DNA from: Chloroflexota bacterium
GTDB lineage: Bacteria > Chloroflexota > Ktedonobacteria > Ktedonobacterales > Ktedonobacteraceae
Assembly (NCBI GenBank): GCA_902810755.1
Contig: CADDYT010000126.1
Coordinates: forward strand, 1 to 19,162
Length of the DNA: 19,162 nt
Direction of reading: 5' to 3'
A model generated the notes under the pieces. The model was not told the DNA's origin. It saw nothing but the letters and a program-made list of their open reading frames with translations, and made no database searches. The position numbers and the translations under genes were made by a program. This document shows positions 3,020 through 19,162 of the stretch, piece by piece (position 1 is the stretch's first letter; every line of letters begins with the position of its first letter).

Positions 3020-4108
3020 TTACGAGCTATGTCCCCAAATTTGCTTACATGCCGCTATCCCTTCCTCTATACCCATCTCGATACCGGTATTATTCGCAGG
3101 CGTCTGCATTCCTGTTCCAAACGTTGAGTCATCCCAACCATAATAGACTATCCCGGTTGCCCCATGCTCACAAAAGCTCTTACTTTGCGTGACAATATCA
3201 TTAGCATCTGGTGTTGCCCAGTAAAGATTCGTATTGCGACGAGGGCCACCAAATGCCTGAACGATACCAATTAATGGCTCCCTGGCAATATTCCACCCGC
3301 GCTTCCCCAGACTGGCAAACACAGCAGGCAGCACCTTTGTCATCGACCAATCATAGTATGATGCAGGGAGGTCGACAGCAGGCGTAGGAGTATAGATATA
3401 GAGACCTACCATATCGCAGCCCTGCGGTGAGAAATTATCGGCCAGCCTATCGAGCCAACCAAAACCGGCCCCGGCAGGTCTTCTTCCCAGGAAGCCTCCG
3501 AATCCACAAATGGCCGGACGCCCAGGCGTATCTTGCTGGATAAGATCATGCACTTTAATCAGTAACCCACGTGCGCTCCCCACATCCCAGGGAACCCAAT
3601 CATCCAGCACCCAGTAGCCAGCAATCAAATGATTACGGCCCACTTGCTGCAAATGTGCCGCAATCACAGCAAGAACTGCCTCCTCATCGATCAACTCTGG
3701 ATGAAAGTCGGTCGCGCAATATGCCCTCACCCCTGGTGGAGGCGGCTTCACCGTCTGCGTGCGGTGGCACTCGTAATAATAGAGATAGCTGGCAATAAAA
3801 CCATCCACCACATGCATGTGCAGCGCCTGCAACTTCTGCCCCAACTGGCTATTCTCGGCAGGAGGTTGCCCGTAGTAGAATACGACCTGCACTCCCTCGT
3901 CGGCTGCCGTCGCTACCTTCTCAGGGGTATCAACACTAAAGCCCCCGGTAAGGTGCATTGGTGCCTCGCCAGTATTGCTTTGCTGTATGTGCTGTACCTC
4001 GATTAATGTTAGCGATAGCAGAACAGCAATAACAACAGGAAGAGCAAAGAGACACCATTTTCTCTTGAGAAATCGATATCTAGCCAACTTCAACTCCCAC
4101 AGTTGCAT
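3020..4108 (-). CDS. Membrane-anchored putative TIM-barrel protein (unrecognised family)
   Basis: I do not recognise this 362-residue protein with certainty. A basic N-terminus (RFLKRKW) is followed by one hydrophobic segment at about 19-36, which looks like an uncleaved signal anchor, so the remainder should face outside. The body has a glycoside-hydrolase-like character: alternating hydrophobic strands rich in aromatic and acidic residues, including YWVLDDW (165-171), GLYIYTPTP (235-243) and VYYGWDDSTFGTG (321-333). Six cysteines lie outside the membrane segment (114, 131, 201, 231, 313, 354). The ATG at 4108 overlaps the end of the upstream gene by 29 nt, with GGAG directly before it, so coupled translation is likely. 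As the last gene of the polysaccharide run it may trim, bind or release the polymer. That role rests on context and general fold character only. Confidence 0.8.
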   Translation of the reverse strand: MQLWELKLARYRFLKRKWCLFALPVVIAVLLSLTLIEVQHIQQSNTGEAPMHLTGGFSVDTPEKVATAADEGVQVVFYYGQPPAENSQLGQKLQALHMHVVDGFIASYLYYYECHRTQTVKPPPPGVRAYCATDFHPELIDEEAVLAVIAAHLQQVGRNHLIAGYWVLDDWVPWDVGSARGLLIKVHDLIQQDTPGRPAICGFGGFLGRRPAGAGFGWLDRLADNFSPQGCDMVGLYIYTPTPAVDLPASYYDWSMTKVLPAVFASLGKRGWNIAREPLIGIVQAFGGPRRNTNLYWATPDANDIVTQSKSFCEHGATGIVYYGWDDSTFGTGMQTPANNTGIEMGIEEGIAACKQIWGHSS

Positions 4109-6260
4109 GCTCCATCACCAGTACAGGCGAAAAATATGTGGCTCGCAGCAACCTGCGTCGCAGCATCTCAGCACTGTGATAGCATTTCACATATTCCCTG
4201 GCTCGTTGCCCCATCTGATAGCAACATTCCCTGTCAGCACACAGGCGGACAAGTGCCATCGCAACAGAAAGAGTATCACCCGGCGTCACAGCAATACCAC
4301 GCCCATCAGCCAGCAATTTTGCATTTGATTGAGGAGAGGTTGAGGCAACAACAGCACAGCCAGCCGCCATTGCTTCGAGTACGGCCATAGAATAATTTGT
4401 ACCCCGTGTGCCAGTGTAAAGAAAGATATCGCTTATTGCCAGAAGTGCTACCACCTCCGCAGGTTTAGCCTCACCGACAAGCGTGCAACTACCATCCAGT
4501 TTGTACCTCTGAATAGCAGCCTCCACCTGCGAGCGCAACGGTCCTTCTCCAGCAATGAGTACCTTCACCCGTTGCTGTATCCTGATCGGTAACTGTGACA
4601 GGGCCAGAGCTATCCCCTGTATTGCAACATCCAATCCCTTCTCCGGCGCAAGACGATTAATAAGCGCAATCACAATGTCCTCTCGCTCAAGTCCCTGGCC
4701 TGCCCGCATACACGCTCGAACCTCTTGCGATGGCGGTGTGTAACGCTGAGCATCAATCATGTAGGTATAGCGAATAATGCGATCTGAAGCAACGCCAAAC
4801 CTTTCGCGATACACATCATTCACCTCATCACCAGCAACAAGGAATTGATCGGTGGAACGTGCCGCGATAAATGCCAGAAGACGCAGCGAGGGCCAGTAGA
4901 GGTTAAAACACAGACAGCCAAAAAGCCGTTTTGGCCAGGAATAGCCCGCAAGGGTCAGGAGACGCTCTTTGTGGAAGGTTGGATTATCCAGCCAGGTGAC
5001 ATTCCCATGATCCATGCAAACTACGCGCACTCCAGCTATTTTACCCATCAGCGCGGCAAACGCGCCGGTAAAAATGCCATCCTGTGGCAGGATCACCCCA
5101 TAGCCGGAAGCAGTGCGCAGGAGGCCAAAGAGCTTGCAGCAGCCAGTCAGAACATAGAGCCAGACAGCAGGGAACTGCCAGGGAGCCGTGAATCTGCGAC
5201 CAAATACCTCAATATTCAGCCCTGCTGGATTCTCGCCTTTATAATTTGTAAGATAGAGCATTTGCCATTGTTTCCCTACTACCTGGGCAACTCCTGCAAG
5301 CACGCCACGCATGCCGCCTGCAACCGGAAATGCAGGTATGGGGATACATACGCGATTGAGTGCGGCTGAATCCGTCATATCAAGGTCAGGAAAAACCATC
5401 TGACGGAGGCGTTGGGCCAGACCACTTACATAACCGGTCAGCCAATTAGTAATCAGAAAACGCAGGCGGCAGGCAACATTTGACTGGTATTGCGCCCAGC
5501 GTGTTGCCAGCCCCGCACAATACTCACATCCGCTATATTTTGCCAGCCATGCAAGCAGAATTACATGCATTGCATGTTCAGATGGTGAAGCAAGGCGCTT
5601 ATGGAGTAGATCAGAGCGTGTCCAGTAGCCCGTATCAAAGAGGGCAAGCAGGGTATGCAATGTCTCGCTACTTCGCTGTATCAGGTCCTTGATTCTGCTC
5701 TCTCCTGCCACAGCTACGTAATCATAGAGACCAAGCAGTGCCATCATACATCCGGTGAGGATATGAGCCGCTGGATAAACCGCCACTTCCTCAAAGAAAA
5801 TACCATCTTCGCCCACCTGGGAACGCACTCCGCCATCAAGGATATCCAGTTCAAAAGCGCGGACGGCACGGTGCGCCGCCTGTAAAAACGCCTCATCCTC
5901 CGTCAACAGATATGCGCGCACAAGAACAGAGAGCACGCAGCCCTGCGCCAGCGCCGACAACCAGGGACGGAAAGCGTAAAATTCTGGCCTTCTTAGAGAG
6001 ATCGGCCACGCTCCAATCCCGTTGGCAAGGGGAATCTGCTGGGCCAGTAACCAGCGAGCCTGAATAAGGAAGATTCCTTTATGCTCAATATCTTCATCTA
6101 TAAGGTACGCATTCCAGTGAGCAAGAGCATAGTGGGCAATACTCGTTGGGTGATATCTCTCCTCTGGAGTACAAGAAGGAGCGCCGGAAAGGACTCCCGC
6201 ACCATCCAGATAGTCAAGCGGCAAAGTAAGTAATGGGGAGAAATCAACTGGATACTTCAT
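4080..6260 (-). CDS. Fusion of degenerate glucuronyl C5-epimerase-like domain and GT4 glycosyltransferase
   Basis: Two-domain protein of 726 aa. Residues about 30-260 match the C-terminal domain of D-glucuronyl C5-epimerase: WLSALAQG (100-107), LVRAYLLT (113-120), the helix ending in GLYDY (177-181), and FDTG (208-211). Three tyrosines I recall as important in the animal enzyme appear replaced: EEYP reads EEVA (157-160), YDL reads SDL (216-218) and YH reads EH (228-229). Residues about 300-726 form a GT4 glycosyltransferase: a Rossmann half with GIFTGAFAALMG (395-406), the donor-site stretch NRLAPEKGLDVAIQG (535-549), GEGPL (571-575) and VLEAMAAG (627-634). In the EX7E motif the first Glu is Thr621. 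I chose the ATG at 6260 because it lies directly after the upstream stop (6262); longer frames reach 6419 but only within the upstream gene. No strong ribosome site is visible, so coupling is likely. The GT half should be cytoplasmic and add a sugar to the repeat unit. Confidence 0.85.
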   Translation of the reverse strand: MKYPVDFSPLLTLPLDYLDGAGVLSGAPSCTPEERYHPTSIAHYALAHWNAYLIDEDIEHKGIFLIQARWLLAQQIPLANGIGAWPISLRRPEFYAFRPWLSALAQGCVLSVLVRAYLLTEDEAFLQAAHRAVRAFELDILDGGVRSQVGEDGIFFEEVAVYPAAHILTGCMMALLGLYDYVAVAGESRIKDLIQRSSETLHTLLALFDTGYWTRSDLLHKRLASPSEHAMHVILLAWLAKYSGCEYCAGLATRWAQYQSNVACRLRFLITNWLTGYVSGLAQRLRQMVFPDLDMTDSAALNRVCIPIPAFPVAGGMRGVLAGVAQVVGKQWQMLYLTNYKGENPAGLNIEVFGRRFTAPWQFPAVWLYVLTGCCKLFGLLRTASGYGVILPQDGIFTGAFAALMGKIAGVRVVCMDHGNVTWLDNPTFHKERLLTLAGYSWPKRLFGCLCFNLYWPSLRLLAFIAARSTDQFLVAGDEVNDVYRERFGVASDRIIRYTYMIDAQRYTPPSQEVRACMRAGQGLEREDIVIALINRLAPEKGLDVAIQGIALALSQLPIRIQQRVKVLIAGEGPLRSQVEAAIQRYKLDGSCTLVGEAKPAEVVALLAISDIFLYTGTRGTNYSMAVLEAMAAGCAVVASTSPQSNAKLLADGRGIAVTPGDTLSVAMALVRLCADRECCYQMGQRAREYVKCYHSAEMLRRRLLRATYFSPVLVMEHATVGVEVG

Positions 6261-6261
6261 C

Positions 6262-7218
6262 TCATGAATCAACTGCAACACGCTTTCCCTCTCGTTCCAG
6301 ATGCATAAACAGAGACTTAAGACCCGCTTCAAGCGAGATTGTCGGCTTGAACTGGTAGGCTGAGGCAAATGGCTCTGGATCGATGAAAAAACGGATGTAT
6401 TCAGCAGGCGCGCCTTCATGGTGGATATCCGGCTCCAACCCGAAGGTATGTGCCGCTCGTGTCACCACCGCGTTGACGCTTTCTCTACTGCCAACACCCA
6501 GGTCTATACAACGAATCCCTTCTGTTGGAGGCGAGAGTAAAACGGCCAGAAGTGCCCTCACCGCATCGTCGATATACATGGCATCAATATAGTTTTCGCC
6601 ATCACCTGTTACCGTAAAGAATGGATTGCGCTCAAAAGCGAAACGGCGCACCAGTTTTGTATAAAGTTTACGAGGTGGTTCATACGGGCCATATGCTCCG
6701 AAGAAACGGATAACCGTTGCAGAGCGAGGCGTACGTTTATGCATAGCAAATGCCCGGATATACTGTTCCGCTGCCAGCTTCGAGATGGCATAGGGCAATG
6801 TCGGTGAGAGCGCAGCAGCCGGGCCAACGAGGCCCTCCAGCCCGATATAGACTGCGCCAGACGAAAGATAGACCAGATGCTCTATAGAACAGGTTTGCAA
6901 TACCTGCAGCAAGCCGCTCACGTTCGTCGCAAGGTCATACAGGGGCCGCTCAATAGAATCGGGGATGGAGGTGTTGCTTGCCAGGGCAAGGCAGCTATCA
7001 AAATCTCCGCCGATCTCTTTGAAAACCCGCCCAACCTGTTGCTGGTCGGTAAGATCACAGGCTACCGGCTGGACATGTTGAAGGGAGTGAGTTTCCAGAA
7101 AGGAGAGGAAACCGGCATTGTCGGGACGATACAGAGCAACTACCCGCCACTCTTGAGGAACAGCCAGGAGGATATTGCGTCCCAGAAAACCAGAAGCTCC
7201 CGTTACCAGCAATCGCAT
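6262..7218 (-). CDS. NAD-dependent epimerase/dehydratase (extended SDR)
   Basis: Cytoplasmic sugar-nucleotide enzyme of 318 aa. The NAD-binding motif GASGFLG is at 7-13, SSG with the catalytic-type residues at 119-121, and YAISK (143-147) supplies the Tyr-Lys pair. RFFGAYGPYEPP is the usual substrate-side sequence of nucleotide-sugar epimerases and dehydratases. The exact reaction cannot be read from sequence: 4-epimerase, 4,6-dehydratase and 4-reductase are all possible. The ATG at 7218 overlaps the upstream stop as TGATG and has AGGGAG 7 nt upstream; an in-frame TTG at 7224 is less likely. Two consecutive SDR genes suggest two steps toward one activated sugar used by the neighbouring glycosyltransferases. 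Confidence 0.88.
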   Translation of the reverse strand: MRLLVTGASGFLGRNILLAVPQEWRVVALYRPDNAGFLSFLETHSLQHVQPVACDLTDQQQVGRVFKEIGGDFDSCLALASNTSIPDSIERPLYDLATNVSGLLQVLQTCSIEHLVYLSSGAVYIGLEGLVGPAAALSPTLPYAISKLAAEQYIRAFAMHKRTPRSATVIRFFGAYGPYEPPRKLYTKLVRRFAFERNPFFTVTGDGENYIDAMYIDDAVRALLAVLLSPPTEGIRCIDLGVGSRESVNAVVTRAAHTFGLEPDIHHEGAPAEYIRFFIDPEPFASAYQFKPTISLEAGLKSLFMHLEREGKRVAVDS

Positions 7219-8219
7219 CAGCAAGCTCCCTTCTGGTTGACCTCAGCACGGGTCCGATAAAACTCCACCGTTCGCGCTAAACCCTCATCAATACTCACCT
7301 GTGGCTCAAAGGCAATGAGGTTCTTCAAAAGCGTGATATCCGAGAGGTGGCGGCGCACGTCACCCGGGCGCGGGTCAAGATAGCGAGTGGGTATCTCCCA
7401 ACCCAGAATCTGTTCTATCTTCGTCTTGAGATCAATCATGCTAATCTCCTGACCGGAGCCAATATTCACCACCTGCCCCTGCGCCTGCGAACATTGATAC
7501 AATGCCAGTGCCGCACGCACCGTATCAGTGACATAGATATAATCTCGTGTCTGTTTTCCATCCCCTAAGAGGGTAAACGCACGCCTCTCAAAGGCACAGC
7601 GCAGCAGCGTCGGAATGATACCGGCATATTGCTGATCGTTCTGCCTGGGACCATAATTGTTGAATGGGCGCACGACCAGCGCGTCCACTCCGAAGGTGGC
7701 CGCATACGTCCGCACCAGATGATCGCTGGCGGCTTTGCTGGCAGCGTAGGGCGTGAGAGGTTCAAGTGGATGCTGCTCGCTCATTGGAATCCTTCTGGCC
7801 GAACCATATGCCTCCGATGAGGAGAAATGTACCAGCGTTGCGAAGTGGCCCTCGCGTAATAGCTCACAGAGTATCGAGGTGATGCTGACATTGGTATCGA
7901 AGCAGAATTTTGGTCGCTCCAACGAGGTAGGAAGAGGAATCACCGCCAGGTCAAACACCACGTCTACAGCATGCAGCCGCCGGAATACATCACGAACGGC
8001 ACGCTCATCAGCCCCATCGACGGCAATAATCTGCAATTCTGGCATCTTATCGCGTGCTTCCTGCAGATTAGCATATCTTCCCAGAAAGAAGTTATCAATG
8101 ATGGTAAGTTTTCCCGCCCCTTCAGCTATCAGAAGATCAACCAGGTGACTGCCAATAAACCCGGCCCCTCCGGTAACTACTACATGTTTTCCTTTTATCG
8201 TTCGTTTTGATAGACCCAT
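7218..8219 (-). CDS. NAD-dependent epimerase/dehydratase (extended SDR, nucleotide-sugar type)
   Basis: Cytoplasmic sugar-nucleotide enzyme of 333 aa. GGAGFIG (17-23) binds NAD, SSSEAYG (133-139) and YAASK (158-162) carry the catalytic Ser, Tyr and Lys, and RPFNNYGPRQ follows at about 184-193. The pattern resembles UDP-sugar 4-epimerases, dTDP-glucose 4,6-dehydratases and UDP-glucuronate decarboxylases, and I cannot separate these by eye. Several in-frame starts reach 8288. I prefer the ATG at 8219 because GAGGA lies 8 nt upstream and the protein then starts close to the Rossmann fold; the ATG at 8234 has its GGAGG directly adjacent with no spacer. This is the first gene of the second minus-strand run, whose promoter should lie in the divergent gap to the methyltransferase. 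Confidence 0.9.
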   Translation of the reverse strand: MGLSKRTIKGKHVVVTGGAGFIGSHLVDLLIAEGAGKLTIIDNFFLGRYANLQEARDKMPELQIIAVDGADERAVRDVFRRLHAVDVVFDLAVIPLPTSLERPKFCFDTNVSITSILCELLREGHFATLVHFSSSEAYGSARRIPMSEQHPLEPLTPYAASKAASDHLVRTYAATFGVDALVVRPFNNYGPRQNDQQYAGIIPTLLRCAFERRAFTLLGDGKQTRDYIYVTDTVRAALALYQCSQAQGQVVNIGSGQEISMIDLKTKIEQILGWEIPTRYLDPRPGDVRRHLSDITLLKNLIAFEPQVSIDEGLARTVEFYRTRAEVNQKGAC

Positions 8220-10190: not shown

Positions 10191-11426
10191 CTATTTCGCT
10201 TCTTTCTTCCAGATACCCTGGTAGAAGCTAACGAGTCGCTCGCTTTCTTTCTCCCAGTTCAACTCTTGTCGGCAAGCAGCCAGAGCATTGTTTTGCATAC
10301 CGATAAGGGTATCGTAGTCATTGAGCATTCCACTGATAGCTGCCGCAACATCTTCGGGTACAAGAGAATATACTACCTTTCCAACATTATGAGTTTCAAC
10401 AAGACTGGCAACCGCGTCCAATGGCGTAGCCAGTACCGGCACATCCGCCATCAAATACTCAAAGAGTTTGTTGGGCAAACACCACTGAATATTAGCAGAA
10501 TACTCAGGGGAGTAGAGAATCAAGCCGATATCGGCTGATGCCGTCCATGTCAGGAGTTCCGCGTAAGGAACAGGTGGCAATATTTTGACGCAATCGACAA
10601 CTCCCTCCTCTGCGATAAGCACTTCCAGTTGCCTCTGTGTAGTTCCAACATTTTTCCCCATAAGAACAATTACTATCCCTTGCTCCAGAAATTTCGCAGC
10701 ACGCACCAACTGCTCCAGCCCTCGATCTGGCTGCAAATTCCCTTGGTAAAGAGCAATCCGTACATCTGAGCGAAGCTCCAGCACCTGCCTCAACCTATCA
10801 CTTTTGGAAATAACTTGATACGCCGGAATATTGCGCACCAGGACGACCTTCTTTGCACGATATGAGCGGTAAATTACCTGCTCTATCGGAGCAGAAACAG
10901 TGATGACTCCCGTACAGCGTGAGATCATATGCGCCAGTAGCCATATCAGGATTACAGTGAACCAGTTCTTTTGTTCCTCCAACCCGTGCAAGGGCAACTC
11001 ATGAGCGTCAAATACCAGAGGCTTATGGTGCCAACGTGCCGCAATATAACAGGCAGGCAATGCGCTCACATCATGCGCGTGATAAATATCCGCAGGCATG
11101 TGCATCAACACGAAAGTACCGCAGAGCATCTTCTGAAGCGTTCTGATAAGACGCAAGAGCTTAAAATGCACCGGGATAAGCCAGTGGGGTTCGATAATAT
11201 GCCGTACATGGATGCCACTGATATCTTCTTCAACAGGGCAATCAAGATCACTTTCAACATCTACAACTGAAACGGCATATCCCGCTGCTGAAAGTGTCCT
11301 GGCCTCCCGTAACACGCGAATATCTGTGCGAACCACACCGCACACATACATACATACCTTGACCGACTCAGCTAACGCAGGCACATCTCTTTTTGCTGAG
11401 AGGCTCGCATGAGCAGATACATCCAT
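10191..11426 (-). CDS. GT4-family glycosyltransferase
   Basis: GT-B glycosyltransferase of 411 aa. VCMYVCGVVRTDIRVLREA (24-42) forms the first strand and loop, HAHD (116-119) and FDAHELPLH (139-147) lie in the acceptor half, and YQGNLQPDRGLEQLVRA plus PNKLFEYLMA (318-327) mark the nucleotide-sugar half. A hydrophobic stretch at about 156-168 may help it bind the membrane. The first 20 residues before the fold are poorly conserved in appearance. The ATG at 11426 follows the flippase stop by one base, and GGAGG inside the flippase 3' end sits 10 nt upstream, so the two genes are coupled. The sugar transferred is unknown. Confidence 0.88.
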   Translation of the reverse strand: MDVSAHASLSAKRDVPALAESVKVCMYVCGVVRTDIRVLREARTLSAAGYAVSVVDVESDLDCPVEEDISGIHVRHIIEPHWLIPVHFKLLRLIRTLQKMLCGTFVLMHMPADIYHAHDVSALPACYIAARWHHKPLVFDAHELPLHGLEEQKNWFTVILIWLLAHMISRCTGVITVSAPIEQVIYRSYRAKKVVLVRNIPAYQVISKSDRLRQVLELRSDVRIALYQGNLQPDRGLEQLVRAAKFLEQGIVIVLMGKNVGTTQRQLEVLIAEEGVVDCVKILPPVPYAELLTWTASADIGLILYSPEYSANIQWCLPNKLFEYLMADVPVLATPLDAVASLVETHNVGKVVYSLVPEDVAAAISGMLNDYDTLIGMQNNALAACRQELNWEKESERLVSFYQGIWKKEAK

Positions 11427-11427
11427 A

Positions 11428-13071
11428 CTACTTCATCCTCCACCACGAAAAGTTCGCTTTTCTAAGTGCAGACAACCATCCCCCGGCTAGAGCCAGACCT
11501 GCACCAAAACAAAGCCATATAGCCAACAAGACGGCCCAGGTAAGATATTCCCCCATACCTTGAACAAAGAAATTACTCGCGATATAGACCGCTACCCCTA
11601 CTCCCAGTGAGAAAATGAAAAAACCAATTTCGTAGGGAATAGGATAGATGCGCTGATTCACAATACAGGCAATGCAAGCAAGTAGCGCATATGCCAGAAG
11701 CGTTGATAAAGCGGCACCTGTAGAGCCATAGAAGGGAATCAAGATTAAATTCAATGCAACATTAACAAAGGCAGCGATACCAGTGAAAAGCACAGCAAAC
11801 CATGTTTTTCGTTTGAGAGCAATTCCCGTTGTGAACATGTTATAGATACCATAAAACATGGTGGACAGAGCAATAATGGGAATAATTGGGGCAGCAGCAT
11901 GATAGGCAGGAGGAAAGAAAATATAAAGGGTGAAGGTACTCACCAGGGAGAGGCCATAGGTAGCAATAAGCAACACAATACTATACCAGCGAAAGATCAG
12001 CCGAAAGATTTGAGGAGCATTCTCTTTTCTGCCAATCTTATACATAGCTGATGGCCAGGCCAGTGAAAATGGAGAGAGGACTACAATACTCACTATCCCA
12101 CCGAGGCTATAGGCAACTGCGTAGCTTGCCGTTTGAGAAAGAGAGCCTAGCCGACCTAATAGTAAGCGATCGGAGAGTTGTAAAACCCATGCAGAGATAA
12201 AGTTCGAGACATTGGGTAATCCAAAGCCGAGCAATCCCTTTGCAACATCGACACGGAGGCGCAGCCCCGCCTGCAAGATGATGACCGGTAATGTGCAAAG
12301 CACTACACCGGCATAGCCCAATGCCGTTGCCATAAGCGAACCAACAATCCCTGCATGAAGACTACCCACCAGAAAAATATTCGCCCCCAGAGAGATGAGC
12401 AAATTGACGATAGAGAGCAGAGAAAACTGTAATGCCCGATTTTCTGCACGTAGCCATGCGAAACCAGGTACCGTAAGATTCTGGAGCAGGATAATCAGCC
12501 CGGTAAGCTTCAGAGAATCACCCAACGCGGGTGAATTAAAAAGCAAGAATGAGAACCAGGAAGCAATACCTACGAACAGCAGGGCAGTTGGCAGAGATAA
12601 GAGGAGTAATAGAATAACTACTGTCGAAAGAACAGCATCCCGGTCTTCCCGAGATTCATAATCATAGTTGTACGAGCGAAAAAAAGCAGAGCTAAGGCCG
12701 AGTTGGGTGATTCCTGCCACCAGAGCAATAGTTGTATTCAATACCGCAAGTACCCCATAGTCATTATGAGACAGATGCCGCGTTAAGAATGGAGCGAGTA
12801 CCAGCGAAACCAGAGGAGAGGCCAGAGAAGATAGAATATAAATCCCTGAGCTTTTGATCAAATGGCGTAGATACAACACATAGCTCTCAGAACTTCTTAC
12901 TTCACTTCCCGATCCCGATGTTGAAACTACCCCACCTGACAATGCAGGCATAATCCATGTAACCTGCTCTTCAATGGGCAATCCTCCTACGGCATCAGAA
13001 TATATTGATTGGGAGGAATTAAATATAACCGGAAGCTGAACCTCAGTAGGGTATTTATCAACTGGTATCAT
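11428..13071 (-). CDS. Wzx-like polysaccharide flippase (MOP superfamily)
   Basis: Integral membrane protein of 547 aa that should move the lipid-linked repeat unit across the cytoplasmic membrane. After a hydrophilic N-terminal stretch of about 70 residues come roughly 13-14 hydrophobic helices. The first carries the family-like arrangement SPLVSLVLAPFLTRHLS followed by NDYGVLAVLNT, typical of RfbX/Wzx proteins. The chain is longer than the usual 420-480 residues mainly because of the N-terminal extension. The ATG at 13071 shares its A with the stop of the polymerase gene (TAATG), and AAGGAGGT lies only about 2 nt away, unusually close. An alternative ATG at 12951 has no good ribosome site. 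Translational coupling to the polymerase is likely. Confidence 0.9.
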   Translation of the reverse strand: MIPVDKYPTEVQLPVIFNSSQSIYSDAVGGLPIEEQVTWIMPALSGGVVSTSGSGSEVRSSESYVLYLRHLIKSSGIYILSSLASPLVSLVLAPFLTRHLSHNDYGVLAVLNTTIALVAGITQLGLSSAFFRSYNYDYESREDRDAVLSTVVILLLLLSLPTALLFVGIASWFSFLLFNSPALGDSLKLTGLIILLQNLTVPGFAWLRAENRALQFSLLSIVNLLISLGANIFLVGSLHAGIVGSLMATALGYAGVVLCTLPVIILQAGLRLRVDVAKGLLGFGLPNVSNFISAWVLQLSDRLLLGRLGSLSQTASYAVAYSLGGIVSIVVLSPFSLAWPSAMYKIGRKENAPQIFRLIFRWYSIVLLIATYGLSLVSTFTLYIFFPPAYHAAAPIIPIIALSTMFYGIYNMFTTGIALKRKTWFAVLFTGIAAFVNVALNLILIPFYGSTGAALSTLLAYALLACIACIVNQRIYPIPYEIGFFIFSLGVGVAVYIASNFFVQGMGEYLTWAVLLAIWLCFGAGLALAGGWLSALRKANFSWWRMK

Positions 13072-14528
13072 TACCTCCTTCCTCCCTCAGATGTATCATC
13101 AACCTTTACCTGTTCTATACTCACGAAGCGAGAAGCCATAGCTCCCAAAACCAGCCACCCAATTGCCGCCAGTGGTGGCAGTGTCCAGGCATTCACACTC
13201 AAGCTATTGATACTCAACGCAACCACAGCAGCAAGTCCTCCACTCAACAGTACGCGCAGACGAACTTCGCCAGACTTCCAGTTCCGCCAGGCTTGCCAGA
13301 AAGCAAACAGCAAAAGAGCTAGAAATAAGAATAGAACCGGAAGCCCTCCCATCGCACCTAATTCCAGGTATGAGTTATGGGGATGCGCCAGCGGACGATA
13401 CTGCGCCGGTACCCGATACGTCTCAGCGCCTTGCAAATACACTGATAATCCCAGACCAAGCCCTGTAAGCGGGAAGGCTTGAATGACCTGGATAGCAGTT
13501 TGCCACGCGCCGAGACGCAATAATAAGGTCGATGGATTTGCCAGTCGATTGAGCAGTATATTTACCTCCGAAGGGAAAAGCGCCATCACCAGTAGACCAA
13601 CAATAAGCACAAGCGAGGGAATCAGAACTCGATAACGGCCACGGCCCGCAAAGAGTACGAAAGCCATCATTCCTCCTAAAGCCGCTATCCAGGCTCCCAG
13701 CGTATAGGTAAAAAGGAGGGCGAGCATCATGAGAAAAATCTCGACAAGATAAAGGAACTTGCCGAGAAAAGATTTACTTTGAGCAAAAAGACCTATCGGG
13801 AAAAAAAGCATTATGGCAAAAAACGCCCCGTTCCAATCAGGATTGAGGAGCAGCGATCCTGTACGACTGGTATGAGCATTCAGAATTTGAAAATCGGATA
13901 CCTGTGTCAGATATGTACTAAGATGTCCTGTCTGGAATACAAATACGCCAGTTGTCGCCTGGATAATGGTATGAATTGCAAACAGCGATCCAACAAAAGC
14001 AAGCATCTTGAAAAGAGTAGCCAGACGTTCCTGATGAGTTGTGATAACCATGCCCAACCAGAACATCAACAATGCTCCCAAGATTATATTAGGGTAGTAG
14101 TAAGCAGCATCGGTATGCGAAACAGCCCCTCTGTCTGCCGGGGAGATAGCTACCAGCAAAAACAGCCCCCAGAGCCATAATGCGCGAGGCTGCGTCCAGG
14201 GATGTTGTGGTGAGCGAAAGAGGAAGTAGATCACGAGCAGCGCAAAGGCTAGTAGCTGCCCTATTATGAGATAGCCCATATACCAGTCAAAACAGATATG
14301 CACCACCAGCACAAGCGATACCGTCAGTGGATCCCAGCGCAGAATAATAGATGCGATCATAATGATGGCAATCATAATGGCCAGAATATACGAAATATCC
14401 AGAATTCTAAAAGCGCCTGTCAATAACACAGCTGTGACCACTGCTACCAATGTGAAAGGTATCGTCAAAGAGGGAAGGCTCCATCTATCTGTCGATGCCT
14501 CCCCTGCCTTATAGTCACTTTTTATCAT
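13071..14528 (-). CDS. O-antigen ligase/polymerase-like membrane protein (Wzy type)
   Basis: Polytopic membrane protein of 485 aa with about 11-12 hydrophobic helices. It most likely polymerises repeat units on the outer face of the membrane; a ligase role is the alternative within the same family. The Wzy_C region is recognisable: FPLTGLGLG, then a polar outer loop of about 20 residues leading into HPHNSYLELGAMGG (382-395) before the next helix. The central region about 190-240 is another large polar loop. I prefer the ATG at 14528, which has GGGAG 8 nt upstream; an in-frame ATG at 14543 adds five residues and has a weaker site. It lies between the phosphatase and flippase genes, a standard Wzx/Wzy arrangement. 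Confidence 0.87.
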   Translation of the reverse strand: MIKSDYKAGEASTDRWSLPSLTIPFTLVAVVTAVLLTGAFRILDISYILAIMIAIIMIASIILRWDPLTVSLVLVVHICFDWYMGYLIIGQLLAFALLVIYFLFRSPQHPWTQPRALWLWGLFLLVAISPADRGAVSHTDAAYYYPNIILGALLMFWLGMVITTHQERLATLFKMLAFVGSLFAIHTIIQATTGVFVFQTGHLSTYLTQVSDFQILNAHTSRTGSLLLNPDWNGAFFAIMLFFPIGLFAQSKSFLGKFLYLVEIFLMMLALLFTYTLGAWIAALGGMMAFVLFAGRGRYRVLIPSLVLIVGLLVMALFPSEVNILLNRLANPSTLLLRLGAWQTAIQVIQAFPLTGLGLGLSVYLQGAETYRVPAQYRPLAHPHNSYLELGAMGGLPVLFLFLALLLFAFWQAWRNWKSGEVRLRVLLSGGLAAVVALSINSLSVNAWTLPPLAAIGWLVLGAMASRFVSIEQVKVDDTSEGGRR

Positions 14529-14575
14529 TCCATCTTCTCCCATCCTACCCTGTTAACTGCTTTCTCCAACTTCGC

Positions 14576-15298
14576 TTATGCCTGATACCATTCGTTGCTC
14601 ACAATCACTCGCGGCCATAGTTCGCTTAATTGATGGAGGCGCTGTTGAGGGAGCAGCTTTGCAGCGGCCTGCAAGCCTTGAGCAACGGCAGGGGGGCGTT
14701 TGTGCAGGCCGTGAGCATCTGAACCAAGACAGTGAATCAGTCCCTTCTTCAGTAAGGTTTCCGCGCTGCGTTGGGCCGTTCTGCCCTGCATGCCCACCAG
14801 ACTGCCTGCGGTGATCTGCGCCAGCACGCCCTGTGAAAGTAATGAGGCCAGCTTCTGTGGGTCGCGCTGGATCGCCTGGTAGCGTTCGACGTGGGCGAGG
14901 ACGGGGACGATGCCTGCCGCCCGCAGTTCAAAGATAACGCGCTCCGTTTCCGGCAGCCAGCTCGTGGACCACATTTCCAGCAGCAGGTAGCGACTGCCGT
15001 TGAGGGTGGCAACTCGCCCGCTCTGAATGTCCTCAACCAGTCCTGGCTTAATCAGCACCTCGTGGCCTGGAAAGAGCCGCAGGGGAATACCACGACGCTC
15101 CAGCACCTGCTGCACTTCGTAGACCCGCGCCTGTATCTCCGCCGCTGGATAGCGTGGATATTCGTCGTTATAGTGCGGGGTCGCAATGGCAGCACGAACC
15201 CCTTCCTGCACCAGCACTGTGGCTAACGCAATGGTCTCTTCCATCGTCTCCGGTCCATCGTCCACGCCCGGCAAAATATGTACGTGTGTGTCAATCAT
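14576..15298 (-). CDS. PHP-family tyrosine-protein phosphatase (CpsB/YwqE type)
   Basis: Metal-dependent phosphatase of 240 aa, expected to dephosphorylate the Tyr-rich tail of the BY-kinase encoded two genes upstream. Metal ligands appear in family order: DTHVH (His5, His7), TPHY (His42), GHE (Glu80), LLLEMW (Glu108), LAHVERY (His136) and GSDAHG (Asp194, His196). The length is normal for the family. I chose the ATG at 15298, with GAGGA about 5 nt upstream, over an in-frame GTG at 15310. The gene lies 41 nt after the DUF4012 gene and 47 nt before the polymerase gene. Kinase plus phosphatase normally sets polymer amount and chain length. Confidence 0.93.
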   Translation of the reverse strand: MIDTHVHILPGVDDGPETMEETIALATVLVQEGVRAAIATPHYNDEYPRYPAAEIQARVYEVQQVLERRGIPLRLFPGHEVLIKPGLVEDIQSGRVATLNGSRYLLLEMWSTSWLPETERVIFELRAAGIVPVLAHVERYQAIQRDPQKLASLLSQGVLAQITAGSLVGMQGRTAQRSAETLLKKGLIHCLGSDAHGLHKRPPAVAQGLQAAAKLLPQQRLHQLSELWPRVIVSNEWYQA

Positions 15299-15339
15299 CT
15301 TCGTCCTCACCAGCCTGCCAGCCTGTGCGTGGCCACCTC

Positions 15340-17393: not shown

Positions 17394-19148
17394 CTAGAAC
17401 TGGCTCGACCGGCCCTTTGTGGGCATGGGAACAGGCTCCGGCGTCGCAGGAGCAGGCACATGGCGCGCCTTCTCGCCCTGACCCCCCTCTGTATGCTGAT
17501 CGTGATCGTGGTGGCGATAGTAGTAATAGTATGAGTACGAGGTATCCTGGCGGCTGCGACGCTGCTTGTTGATGACACAACCCACAACGCGCGCGCCAAC
17601 CTGCTCCAGCTGCGTTTTCATCTGCCGGAGATGGCCCTTATTCGAGCGAGTCACATCCACTACGATAAGCGTGCCATCCACTTTTGAAGCAAGAATACTG
17701 GTATCCGAGAGGCCGCGAATAGGAGGCACATCAAAAATCACGATCTCTGCCCCACAGGTTGCCAGCATCTGCAAGAGCCGCTTCATCGCCTTCGATTCGA
17801 GCAGTTCCGATGGATTAGGCGGTAGCGGGCCAGAAGGCATGACGCGCAAGTTTGGAATGCCCACCGGGTGAATAAATGGCTCAATCGAAAAAGGAGTTGT
17901 AGTGGGCTGAGGAGCAAAGGGATGCCCGGAAGGGGGAATGATACGCTCACCTGTCCCCGATTGCCCTGTGGATGACATCCCCAGCGCCAGGATAGCGTTA
18001 CTCAACCCCATCCTGTCAGGTGGAAGCTGGAACTTCGCGTGCAGCGTCGGGCGGCGCAGGTCCGCATCGATCAACAGGGTATTTTTTCCGGCCTTCGCCA
18101 TGAAAATTGCCAGGTTGGCAGCCACCGTACTCTTGCCATCGCCGGGCATGGCGCTGGTCACAACCAGCGTTTGCAGCGATTTATCGACGGCAGAGAAGCC
18201 CACGTTTGTGCGCAAAATACGGTAGGACTCGATATTTACGTCATGCCCCTGTGGATTGATGATCTCCTCTTGCTGTGAAGAGCGGGCGCGCCAGATTGTG
18301 CCAAGCACCGTCCAGCCTGAAAGTTCGGTTAATTGCTCCGCCGTATGCACGCGCGTATCCAGTTGTTCATACAGTACCGCCAGCAGCATACCCAGGAACA
18401 AACCGGCCATAAAGCCTACTGCCGTATTCAGGAGAACATTGGGACGCGCCGGTCGGAGCGCAGGCTGCGCGGGCTGCGCAATGCGCAGGAAGTTGCCGGT
18501 CTGCGCCTGCGCCAGTTCCAGCTGCGCCAGGGCATTCTGCCACTGATCATAGTGGCTCTGCAAACCGTTCAATTGCACCTGGAGCGCCGCAATCTTGCCG
18601 ATATTCCCACCCGCTGCTTTTAGCGCGCTGAGCTGGCTGTTGACCGTCTCTATCTGCTTCTGCGTATTGTTTAGCTCCTGCTGTATCTGTTGCTGGGCCT
18701 GGCTGTTCTCCTGCTGAATTACCTGTGCCTGCTGGGCGATAAGCGTCGTGGCAATCGCATTGGCCAGGTCGGCGGCTCGCGCCGGGGACGGGTCCAGCAC
18801 CGAGATGCCAAAAAGTTGCGTGCTTGCCTGGGGTGAAGCGGTGGTATTGCTCGCCAGTGCCTCAACACTCATACCGGGGTAGTGTGCAACCACCGCTTGC
18901 AGCACCGGCTGACTGATCGCAAGCTGCGCCTCCGTCTGCACCAGCTGGTCGCTCGCCAGCAGGCTGTTATAATCCGCGCTGGTATTATTTTGAGAAGAAT
19001 GAATCTCAACCTGCACAATCGCCGTCGATTGATACATCGGGGTCATCAGCTTACTGACGATCAGCGTTCCCAACCCCACCACCACAAAACAGATGACCAC
19101 CAGTTTCCACTGTTTCGTCAGGATTACCCAGAATTGTTCAAAAGTCAT
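17394..19148 (-). CDS. Wzz/BY-kinase fusion (chain-length determinant and tyrosine kinase)
   Basis: Membrane protein of 584 aa controlling polymer length and export. TM1 at about 15-34 and TM2 at about 238-260 flank an external Wzz domain with a Gln-rich coiled coil (about 135-215); the proline motif before TM2 reads QPAQPALRPARP. The cytoplasmic kinase has YRILRTNVGFS (309-319), Walker A SAMPGDGKST (332-341), Walker A' LLIDADLRRP (358-367) and Walker B IVIFDVPP (469-476). A Ser/Pro-rich insert occupies about 391-430. The tail has a tyrosine cluster (538, 540-544), the expected autophosphorylation sites, followed by a His/Asp-rich stretch. The ATG at 19148 has GGGGAAGGA just upstream. It is probably near the head of the operon; the window edge hides the promoter. 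Confidence 0.94.
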   Translation of the reverse strand: MTFEQFWVILTKQWKLVVICFVVVGLGTLIVSKLMTPMYQSTAIVQVEIHSSQNNTSADYNSLLASDQLVQTEAQLAISQPVLQAVVAHYPGMSVEALASNTTASPQASTQLFGISVLDPSPARAADLANAIATTLIAQQAQVIQQENSQAQQQIQQELNNTQKQIETVNSQLSALKAAGGNIGKIAALQVQLNGLQSHYDQWQNALAQLELAQAQTGNFLRIAQPAQPALRPARPNVLLNTAVGFMAGLFLGMLLAVLYEQLDTRVHTAEQLTELSGWTVLGTIWRARSSQQEEIINPQGHDVNIESYRILRTNVGFSAVDKSLQTLVVTSAMPGDGKSTVAANLAIFMAKAGKNTLLIDADLRRPTLHAKFQLPPDRMGLSNAILALGMSSTGQSGTGERIIPPSGHPFAPQPTTTPFSIEPFIHPVGIPNLRVMPSGPLPPNPSELLESKAMKRLLQMLATCGAEIVIFDVPPIRGLSDTSILASKVDGTLIVVDVTRSNKGHLRQMKTQLEQVGARVVGCVINKQRRSRQDTSYSYYYYYRHHDHDQHTEGGQGEKARHVPAPATPEPVPMPTKGRSSQF

Positions 19149-19162
19149 ATTTTCCTTCCCCT

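Follow-up and report, generated by a model that had tools for sequence, protein, structure and literature searches.

Likely Recurrent Loss of Catalytic Tyrosines from a C5-Epimerase-like Domain Fused to a GT4 Glycosyltransferase in Ktedonobacteria

Introduction

The D-glucuronyl C5-epimerases (GLCE) of human and zebrafish (PDB 6HZZ and 4PW2) have an alpha-helical fold and a Glu-Glu pair that includes E499. PMC13308652 gives the key residues of the human enzyme as E499, Y500, N510, Y560, and Y578; PMC12834895 assigns the role of base to Y578 and that of proton donor to E499. Another system to compare is Halobacterium Agl32, described in the excerpt of PMC13308652 as a C5-epimerase without the GLCE catalytic residues and with limited structural similarity to GLCE.

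The window, the whole 19,162-nucleotide stretch of Ktedonobacterial DNA analyzed here, encodes a PF06662 C5-epimerase-like domain fused to a GT4 glycosyltransferase. Like the animal enzymes, the window protein has the alpha-helical fold and the Glu-Glu pair, and it shares the GLCE motifs WPI, SA-AQG, LVRAY, DTG, and HxxH. Unlike them, it has replacements at Y500, N510, Y560, and Y578, is fused to a glycosyltransferase (GT), and is encoded in a bacterial polysaccharide cluster. It resembles Agl32 in lacking GLCE catalytic residues, though not the acid Glu; Agl32 is reported to be active on GlcA in a tetrasaccharide (PMC13308652). Among top-ranked publication titles, under partial literature coverage, none on a PF06662-GT4 fusion was found. 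The features of the gene are as follows; stand-alones are PF06662 proteins without a GT domain.

4080..6260, minus strand: gene for a 726-aa fusion (length counted from this start) of a PF06662 C5-epimerase-like domain and a GT4 glycosyltransferase
5448..6260, minus strand: C5-epimerase-like domain, residues 1-271
4128..5363, minus strand: GT4 domain, residues 300-711
5787..5792, minus strand: Glu157-Glu158; E158 aligns with GLCE E499 (acid) and is kept
5784..5786, minus strand: Val159, aligned with GLCE Y500; family-wide in Ktedonobacteria
5775..5777, minus strand: Tyr162, invariant in fusions (136/136), variable in stand-alones (79/103)
5754..5756, minus strand: Thr169, aligned with GLCE N510; Asn in 103/103 stand-alones
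5613..5615, minus strand: Ser216, aligned with GLCE Y560; Tyr lost
5577..5579, minus strand: Glu228, aligned with GLCE Y578 (base); Tyr lost

Methods

A full-protein search returned 427 relatives, the best 120 of which are all two-domain proteins headed by the window's own; a domain-only search returned 137, of which the best 120 were listed. Both lists run in order of similarity to the window protein, so the proportion of degenerate fusions in them is a biased estimate. Scanning genomes yielded 45 loci; besides Ktedonobacteria, their sources include Latescibacterota, Thermoplasmatota, Calditrichota, Saprospiraceae, Bacteroidales, Clostridia, and Actinobacteria.

The stand-alone set (n = 103) comprises 101 of the best 120 of 137 domain-search matches plus L004 and L054. 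Left out were P0238-P0241, all shorter than 250 aa, and fifteen rows taken as fusion pieces (P0122, P0136, P0146, P0217, P0218, P0223, P0227, P0228, and P0231-P0237), 12 of which lack Tyr228. Six of the fifteen have a GT start recognizable by pattern, and the rest were excluded through their placement in a trait-free tree. By eye, the sequence resembles a GT start in P0218, P0223, and P0237; one was looked for in P0146, P0227, P0231, and P0235 and none was seen; P0122 and P0228 were left out through tree placement, a GT start not being demonstrated. For four short tyrosine-less proteins without a GT start, the tree placement was the sole ground for classing them as fusion fragments. The contig-cut L001 (tyrosines present) and L052 (tyrosines absent) were excluded from fusions and stand-alones alike.

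The site-mixture tree was built from 112 rows (86 fusions, 20 stand-alones, and 6 outgroup); seven trait columns were removed for this tree and for a FastTree tree. Residue retention was scored over the 45 residues that human GLCE has in common with 90% or more of the stand-alones. Weak partial PF06662 matches (G004, G005, G028, and G038-G041; E 1e-5 to 1e-3) were not counted as copies.

Results and Discussion

The window protein scores 121.7 bits against the PF06662 C5-epim_C profile, for which the curated cut-off is 23.3, and its N-terminal half has the alpha-helical fold of GLCE. This computed match bears out an earlier note on the same DNA, which had recognized an epimerase scaffold there and proposed a profile search and an alignment with GLCE; with a significant family match in hand, the two catalytic tyrosines are still absent. 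The other half matches GT4 by both profile and fold.

In pairwise and wide alignments, GLCE E499, Y500, N510, Y560, and Y578 correspond to E158, V159, T169, S216, and E228. Since E158 matches E499 and E228 matches Y578, the acid is retained and the base is gone. Compared with a functional D-glucuronyl C5-epimerase, the protein thus has the acid Glu158, with Glu228 in place of the base tyrosine and Ser216 and Thr169 in place of Y560 and N510. Val159 in place of Y500 is weak evidence because Val occurs in 101/103 stand-alone relatives, including those with the other catalytic residues intact. The earlier claim that key tyrosines are lost therefore stands for Ser216 and Glu228, whereas Val159 is rejected as a sign that catalysis has gone. 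Leu101 (WYSAMAQG to WLSALAQG), also read as a sign of loss, is ruled out in the same way, being likewise present in stand-alones with the other catalytic residues intact. Tyr162, which the note had placed near the lost sites, proved invariant in the fusions examined. Its constancy there and its variability in stand-alones suggest that it hardly belongs to the common chemistry, yet is wanted by the fusions.

Residue states were then compared across relatives. Asn169, Tyr216, and Tyr228 are each present in 103/103 stand-alone Ktedonobacterial proteins, the Tyr228 count becoming 106/118 if the fifteen left-out rows are counted as stand-alones. In 39 proteins from other phyla (L008-L045), Tyr228 is kept in 39/39, Tyr216 in 33 (Phe in the remaining 6), and Asn169 in 26 (Asp in 13). 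The 136 fusions examined retain Asn169 in 39, Tyr216 in 53, and Tyr228 in 49, and they retain Glu157 in 135, Glu158 in 123, and Tyr162 and Pro163 in all. At residue 228 a scatter of residues replaces the tyrosine (H, E, S, Q, D, C, T, and others), with His (24) and Glu (23) the commonest, and residue 216 scatters in parallel. Ser216 and Glu228 are fixed in the window's seven closest relatives among the matches listed, and one large fusion group also carries H229 to Leu and H232 to Gln. The comparison of two-domain relatives that the earlier note had suggested thus places tyrosine loss in the nearest relatives and repeatedly across the fusions.

Three kinds of protein can be set against one another. 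Stand-alones (L054, L004:9857-10954) are about 50% identical to the window domain, carry Val159 as well, and lie in the same cluster type where seen (L004, L073); they differ from the window protein in lacking a GT domain, in keeping all three catalytic positions, and in varying at Tyr162. Intact fusions (L002:9788-12211, P0104) share its two-domain order (P0104) and have similar neighbors (L002), but keep Asn169, Tyr216, and Tyr228 (26 of the 120 listed), whereas the window protein keeps none. Among these bacterial relatives of the heparan sulfate epimerase, four fusions named 'D-glucuronyl C5-epimerase family protein' (P0056, P0058, P0069, P0089) all lack Tyr228, so the database name may mislead for these four; some of the remaining fusions are named glycosyltransferases, and many are nameless.

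Two further observations concern PF06662 outside the fusions. Thirteen proteins from Saprospiraceae, Calditrichota, and others (L013-L015, L018-L021, L024, L025, L027-L030) carry Asp where GLCE has N510, have residues other than His at 229/232, retain Tyr228, and are possibly a functional subtype. In the Actinobacterial proteins L042, L043, L044, and L045, cell-wall-binding CWB2 repeats replace the GT, and Tyr216 and Tyr228 are kept; L042 and L045 have WbpB/E/dehydrogenase/WecB-like genes close by.

The two tyrosines tend to be lost together. Among 120 fusions (the best 120 of 427 matches), 42 have both, 64 neither, 9 only Tyr216, and 5 only Tyr228 (Fisher p 6e-18, with relatedness ignored). 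Of 670 columns, that of residue 216 gains the most entropy when the fusions are split by residue 228, and that of residue 228 gains the most when they are split by residue 216. Residue 169 ranks 35th and 27th, respectively. A first entropy comparison was set aside as partly circular because its classes were defined by the residues under test; the later split used one residue. Joint loss is the pattern expected from losing one shared function.

In the site-mixture tree, 85/86 fusions group together (SH-aLRT 98) with stand-alones outside, and one fusion, P0106, is placed among the stand-alones with weak support. The tree requires 14 changes at residue 169 and 16 each at residues 216 and 228 on thin support, 11/109 inner branches being starred and two long outgroup rows being joined. 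Well-supported branches carry only 4 independent contrasts, and residue 216 follows residue 228 in about 3 of them, which is not significant. The FastTree topology (295 rows, rooted on Actinobacteria), which set stand-alones inside the fusions and required 24, 21, and 18 changes at residues 169, 216, and 228, was not used because the site-mixture model with nearer outgroups put stand-alones outside the fusions. Recurrent coupled loss of Tyr216 and Tyr228 is likely.

The degenerate domain remains under purifying selection after tyrosine loss, although less strongly than the GT domain. Of the 45 shared residues, 35 are present at 80% or more in 87 fusions without Tyr228. The least kept are Tyr228 (by definition), Tyr216, and Asn169, followed by W100, H229, and H232 among others, whereas R115, Q106, W85, E157, and P163 stand at 98-100%. 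Across 15 pairs from six genomes (G039-G044), dN/dS is 0.107-0.369 for the degenerate C5 domain versus 0.040-0.108 for the GT domain, and the C5 value is the higher in 14/15 pairs. Mean C5/GT divergence is 0.87 in 26 intact fusions versus 1.00 in 64 that lost both tyrosines. The higher dN/dS and this rise indicate that constraint is partly relaxed. Full-length open frames persist in deep lineages (L058-L063). A domain that is without its catalytic residues yet retains its fold and stays constrained has the profile of a pseudoenzyme; the dN/dS values come from a group outside the window's clade.

The fusion occurs in 15/47 Ktedonobacterial genomes and lacks Tyr228 in 13/15. A stand-alone copy accompanies it in only 2/15, both with fusions lacking Tyr228: in Dictyobacter arantiisoli (G004) the two genes lie within one cluster, and in G008 the stand-alone gene follows the fusion gene on the same strand after a gap of 3 bases. 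Takeover of catalysis by a stand-alone copy is therefore ruled out as a general rule. In 11/13 genomes with a Tyr228-less fusion, for which completeness is not given, the search turned up neither an intact nor a stand-alone copy, so many cells seem dependent on the degenerate copy alone; one of these (G007) has a second, contig-cut copy, likewise without the tyrosines. The window holds no stand-alone copy. One of the 15 fusion genes (G006) is in two frames. The Dictyobacter kobayashii fusion (L078:8033-10074, also L006) is split into frames of 491 and 189 aa, as are WbpB-like and further cluster genes there, through either sequencing indels or decay.

The remainder of the window encodes a polysaccharide cluster:

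6262..7224, minus strand: SDR nucleotide-sugar epimerase/dehydratase (PF01370), directly upstream of the fusion; matches in L001, L002, L004, L007
7218..8288, minus strand: second SDR nucleotide-sugar epimerase/dehydratase (PF01370); matches in L001-L004, L007
8334-9146, plus strand: SAM methyltransferase (PF08241), opposite strand inside the cluster; relatives in L004, L074
9127..10170, minus strand: GT4-like glycosyltransferase
10191..11426, minus strand: GT4 glycosyltransferase
11428..13071, minus strand: Wzx-type flippase (PF13440, PF01943)
13071..14543, minus strand: Wzy/O-antigen-ligase type polymerase (PF04932)
14576..15310, minus strand: CpsB/CapC phosphatase (PF19567)
17394..19160, minus strand: Wzz/tyrosine-kinase-like chain length regulator (PF02706, PF13807)

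The 362-aa protein encoded at 3020-4108 matches neither Pfam nor NCBIfam at E 0.1; it is conserved, at about 53-59% identity, next to the cluster in L004, L005, L076, L077, and L078. The Acidobacteria-bin contig L001, probably misbinned, bears a Ktedonobacterial cluster in which the two SDR genes are 76-79% identical to the window's.

Genes near the fusions suggest which sugar is involved. Adjoining the G008 pair are a UDP-GlcNAc 3-dehydrogenase-like gene (NF040723, E 2e-94, below the curated cut-off), a nucleotide-sugar dehydrogenase (TIGR03026) and WecB, both above cut-off, and an aminotransferase and an acetyltransferase, each below the cut-off of its best model. This set resembles the Pseudomonas genes WbpA, B, E, D, and I, which make UDP-ManNAc(3NAc)A according to PMC4031482. 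A WbpB-like gene (E <= 1e-60) is present in 13/15 fusion genomes versus 5/32 others (Fisher p 5e-6 over 47 Ktedonobacterial genomes, relatedness ignored) and, in 9/13, shares a contig with the fusion and is no more than about 18 kb away from it. Of the two exceptions, G017 has no match at this threshold, and in G006 the gene is in two pieces near the fusion. The window, which ends inside the cluster, contains none. The neighborhood points to 2,3-diacetamido-uronic acid rather than glucuronic acid, and intact relatives may epimerize this sugar within a glycan.

GT4 enzymes carry the motifs RX4K and EX7E, the latter with two glutamates. In the window protein, we take R536 and K541 to be RX4K, E629 the second Glu of EX7E, and Thr621 (4398-4400) the first-Glu position. 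G315, G316, R536, K541, and E629 are invariant in 120/120 fusions (the best 120 of 427), in intact and degenerate classes alike. Residue 621 is Thr in 83/120 listed fusions, with Ala, Ser, or Ile in most of the others, whereas the retaining GT4 enzymes PimB', HepE, and BshA have the first Glu. Donor handling by the fusion GT half may differ from that of typical GT4 enzymes.

These data allow a mechanism to be proposed, which we favor by a modest degree. In Ktedonobacteria, a GT4 glycosyltransferase and a still intact C5-epimerase domain would have become fused in one event, after which both catalytic tyrosines, and in most cases the asparagine too, would have disappeared from many fusion lineages, the window's included. 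The fold, Glu157, Tyr162, His166, Arg115, Gln106, mostly Glu158, and the GT core would have been retained. The old cleft probably still holds a uronate-containing, lipid-linked glycan without epimerizing it, so that the N-terminal half would position or select the acceptor for the GT half. We infer from sequence comparison that activity was lost, that sugar is still bound, and that this bound glycan serves the GT as acceptor; of the readings of the N-terminal domain, one in which it presents glycan to the GT fits best. A module serving folding or GT support alone would be expected to leave much the same pattern.

It is unlikely that the domain is still an epimerase, with Glu228 (His in other clades) as base, Tyr162 helping, and Glu158 as acid. 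Glu158 is kept, which could be a sign of retained chemistry, Tyr162 never varies in the fusions, His and Glu are the commonest residues at 228, and Ser216/Glu228 are fixed around the window; however, scattered replacements at 228 and 216 argue against this, as do the changes at H229 and H232 in one large group and the unbroken retention of Tyr228 in the 39 proteins of other phyla. The scatter also argues against an enzyme with a different reaction. Similarly improbable is a redundant relic, retained merely through fusion to a needed GT and now being lost. Repeated losses and a dN/dS above that of the GT domain would fit a relic, but dN/dS is still 0.11-0.37, Tyr162, Pro163, and Glu157 are (nearly) invariant, and deep lineages keep full-length frames.

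Some polymerase pairs have inactive partners, and the degenerate half could by analogy recruit or activate a separate intact epimerase. The gene arrangements in G008 and G004 would suit such a partner subunit, as would eight more fusion/stand-alone pairs, suggested indirectly because the longest contigs given for the two proteins are equal in length (P0024/P0158, P0038/P0160, P0049/P0213, P0057/P0215, P0103/P0203, P0108/P0148, P0114/P0168, and P0120/P0182), in which the fusion lacks Asn169 in 8/8 and Tyr228 in 7/8. Set against the 11/13 genomes (completeness not given) and the window, where no stand-alone copy was found, this role is very unlikely.

Conclusions

Returning to the glycan-holding domain, we tentatively extend the proposal: within one bacterial class, a bifunctional epimerase-GT would have been converted repeatedly into a GT whose old epimerase cleft is a built-in lectin for 2,3-diacetamido-uronate glycans, in which Tyr162 would be a fusion-specific binding residue. 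The family supplies matched sets of intact stand-alone, intact fusion, and degenerate fusion, at about 50% identity and in similar gene clusters, so it is directly testable what an epimerase still does once its chemistry is gone. In these soil-type bacteria, the epimerase-like second half of a glycosyltransferase probably grips sugar chains without changing them.
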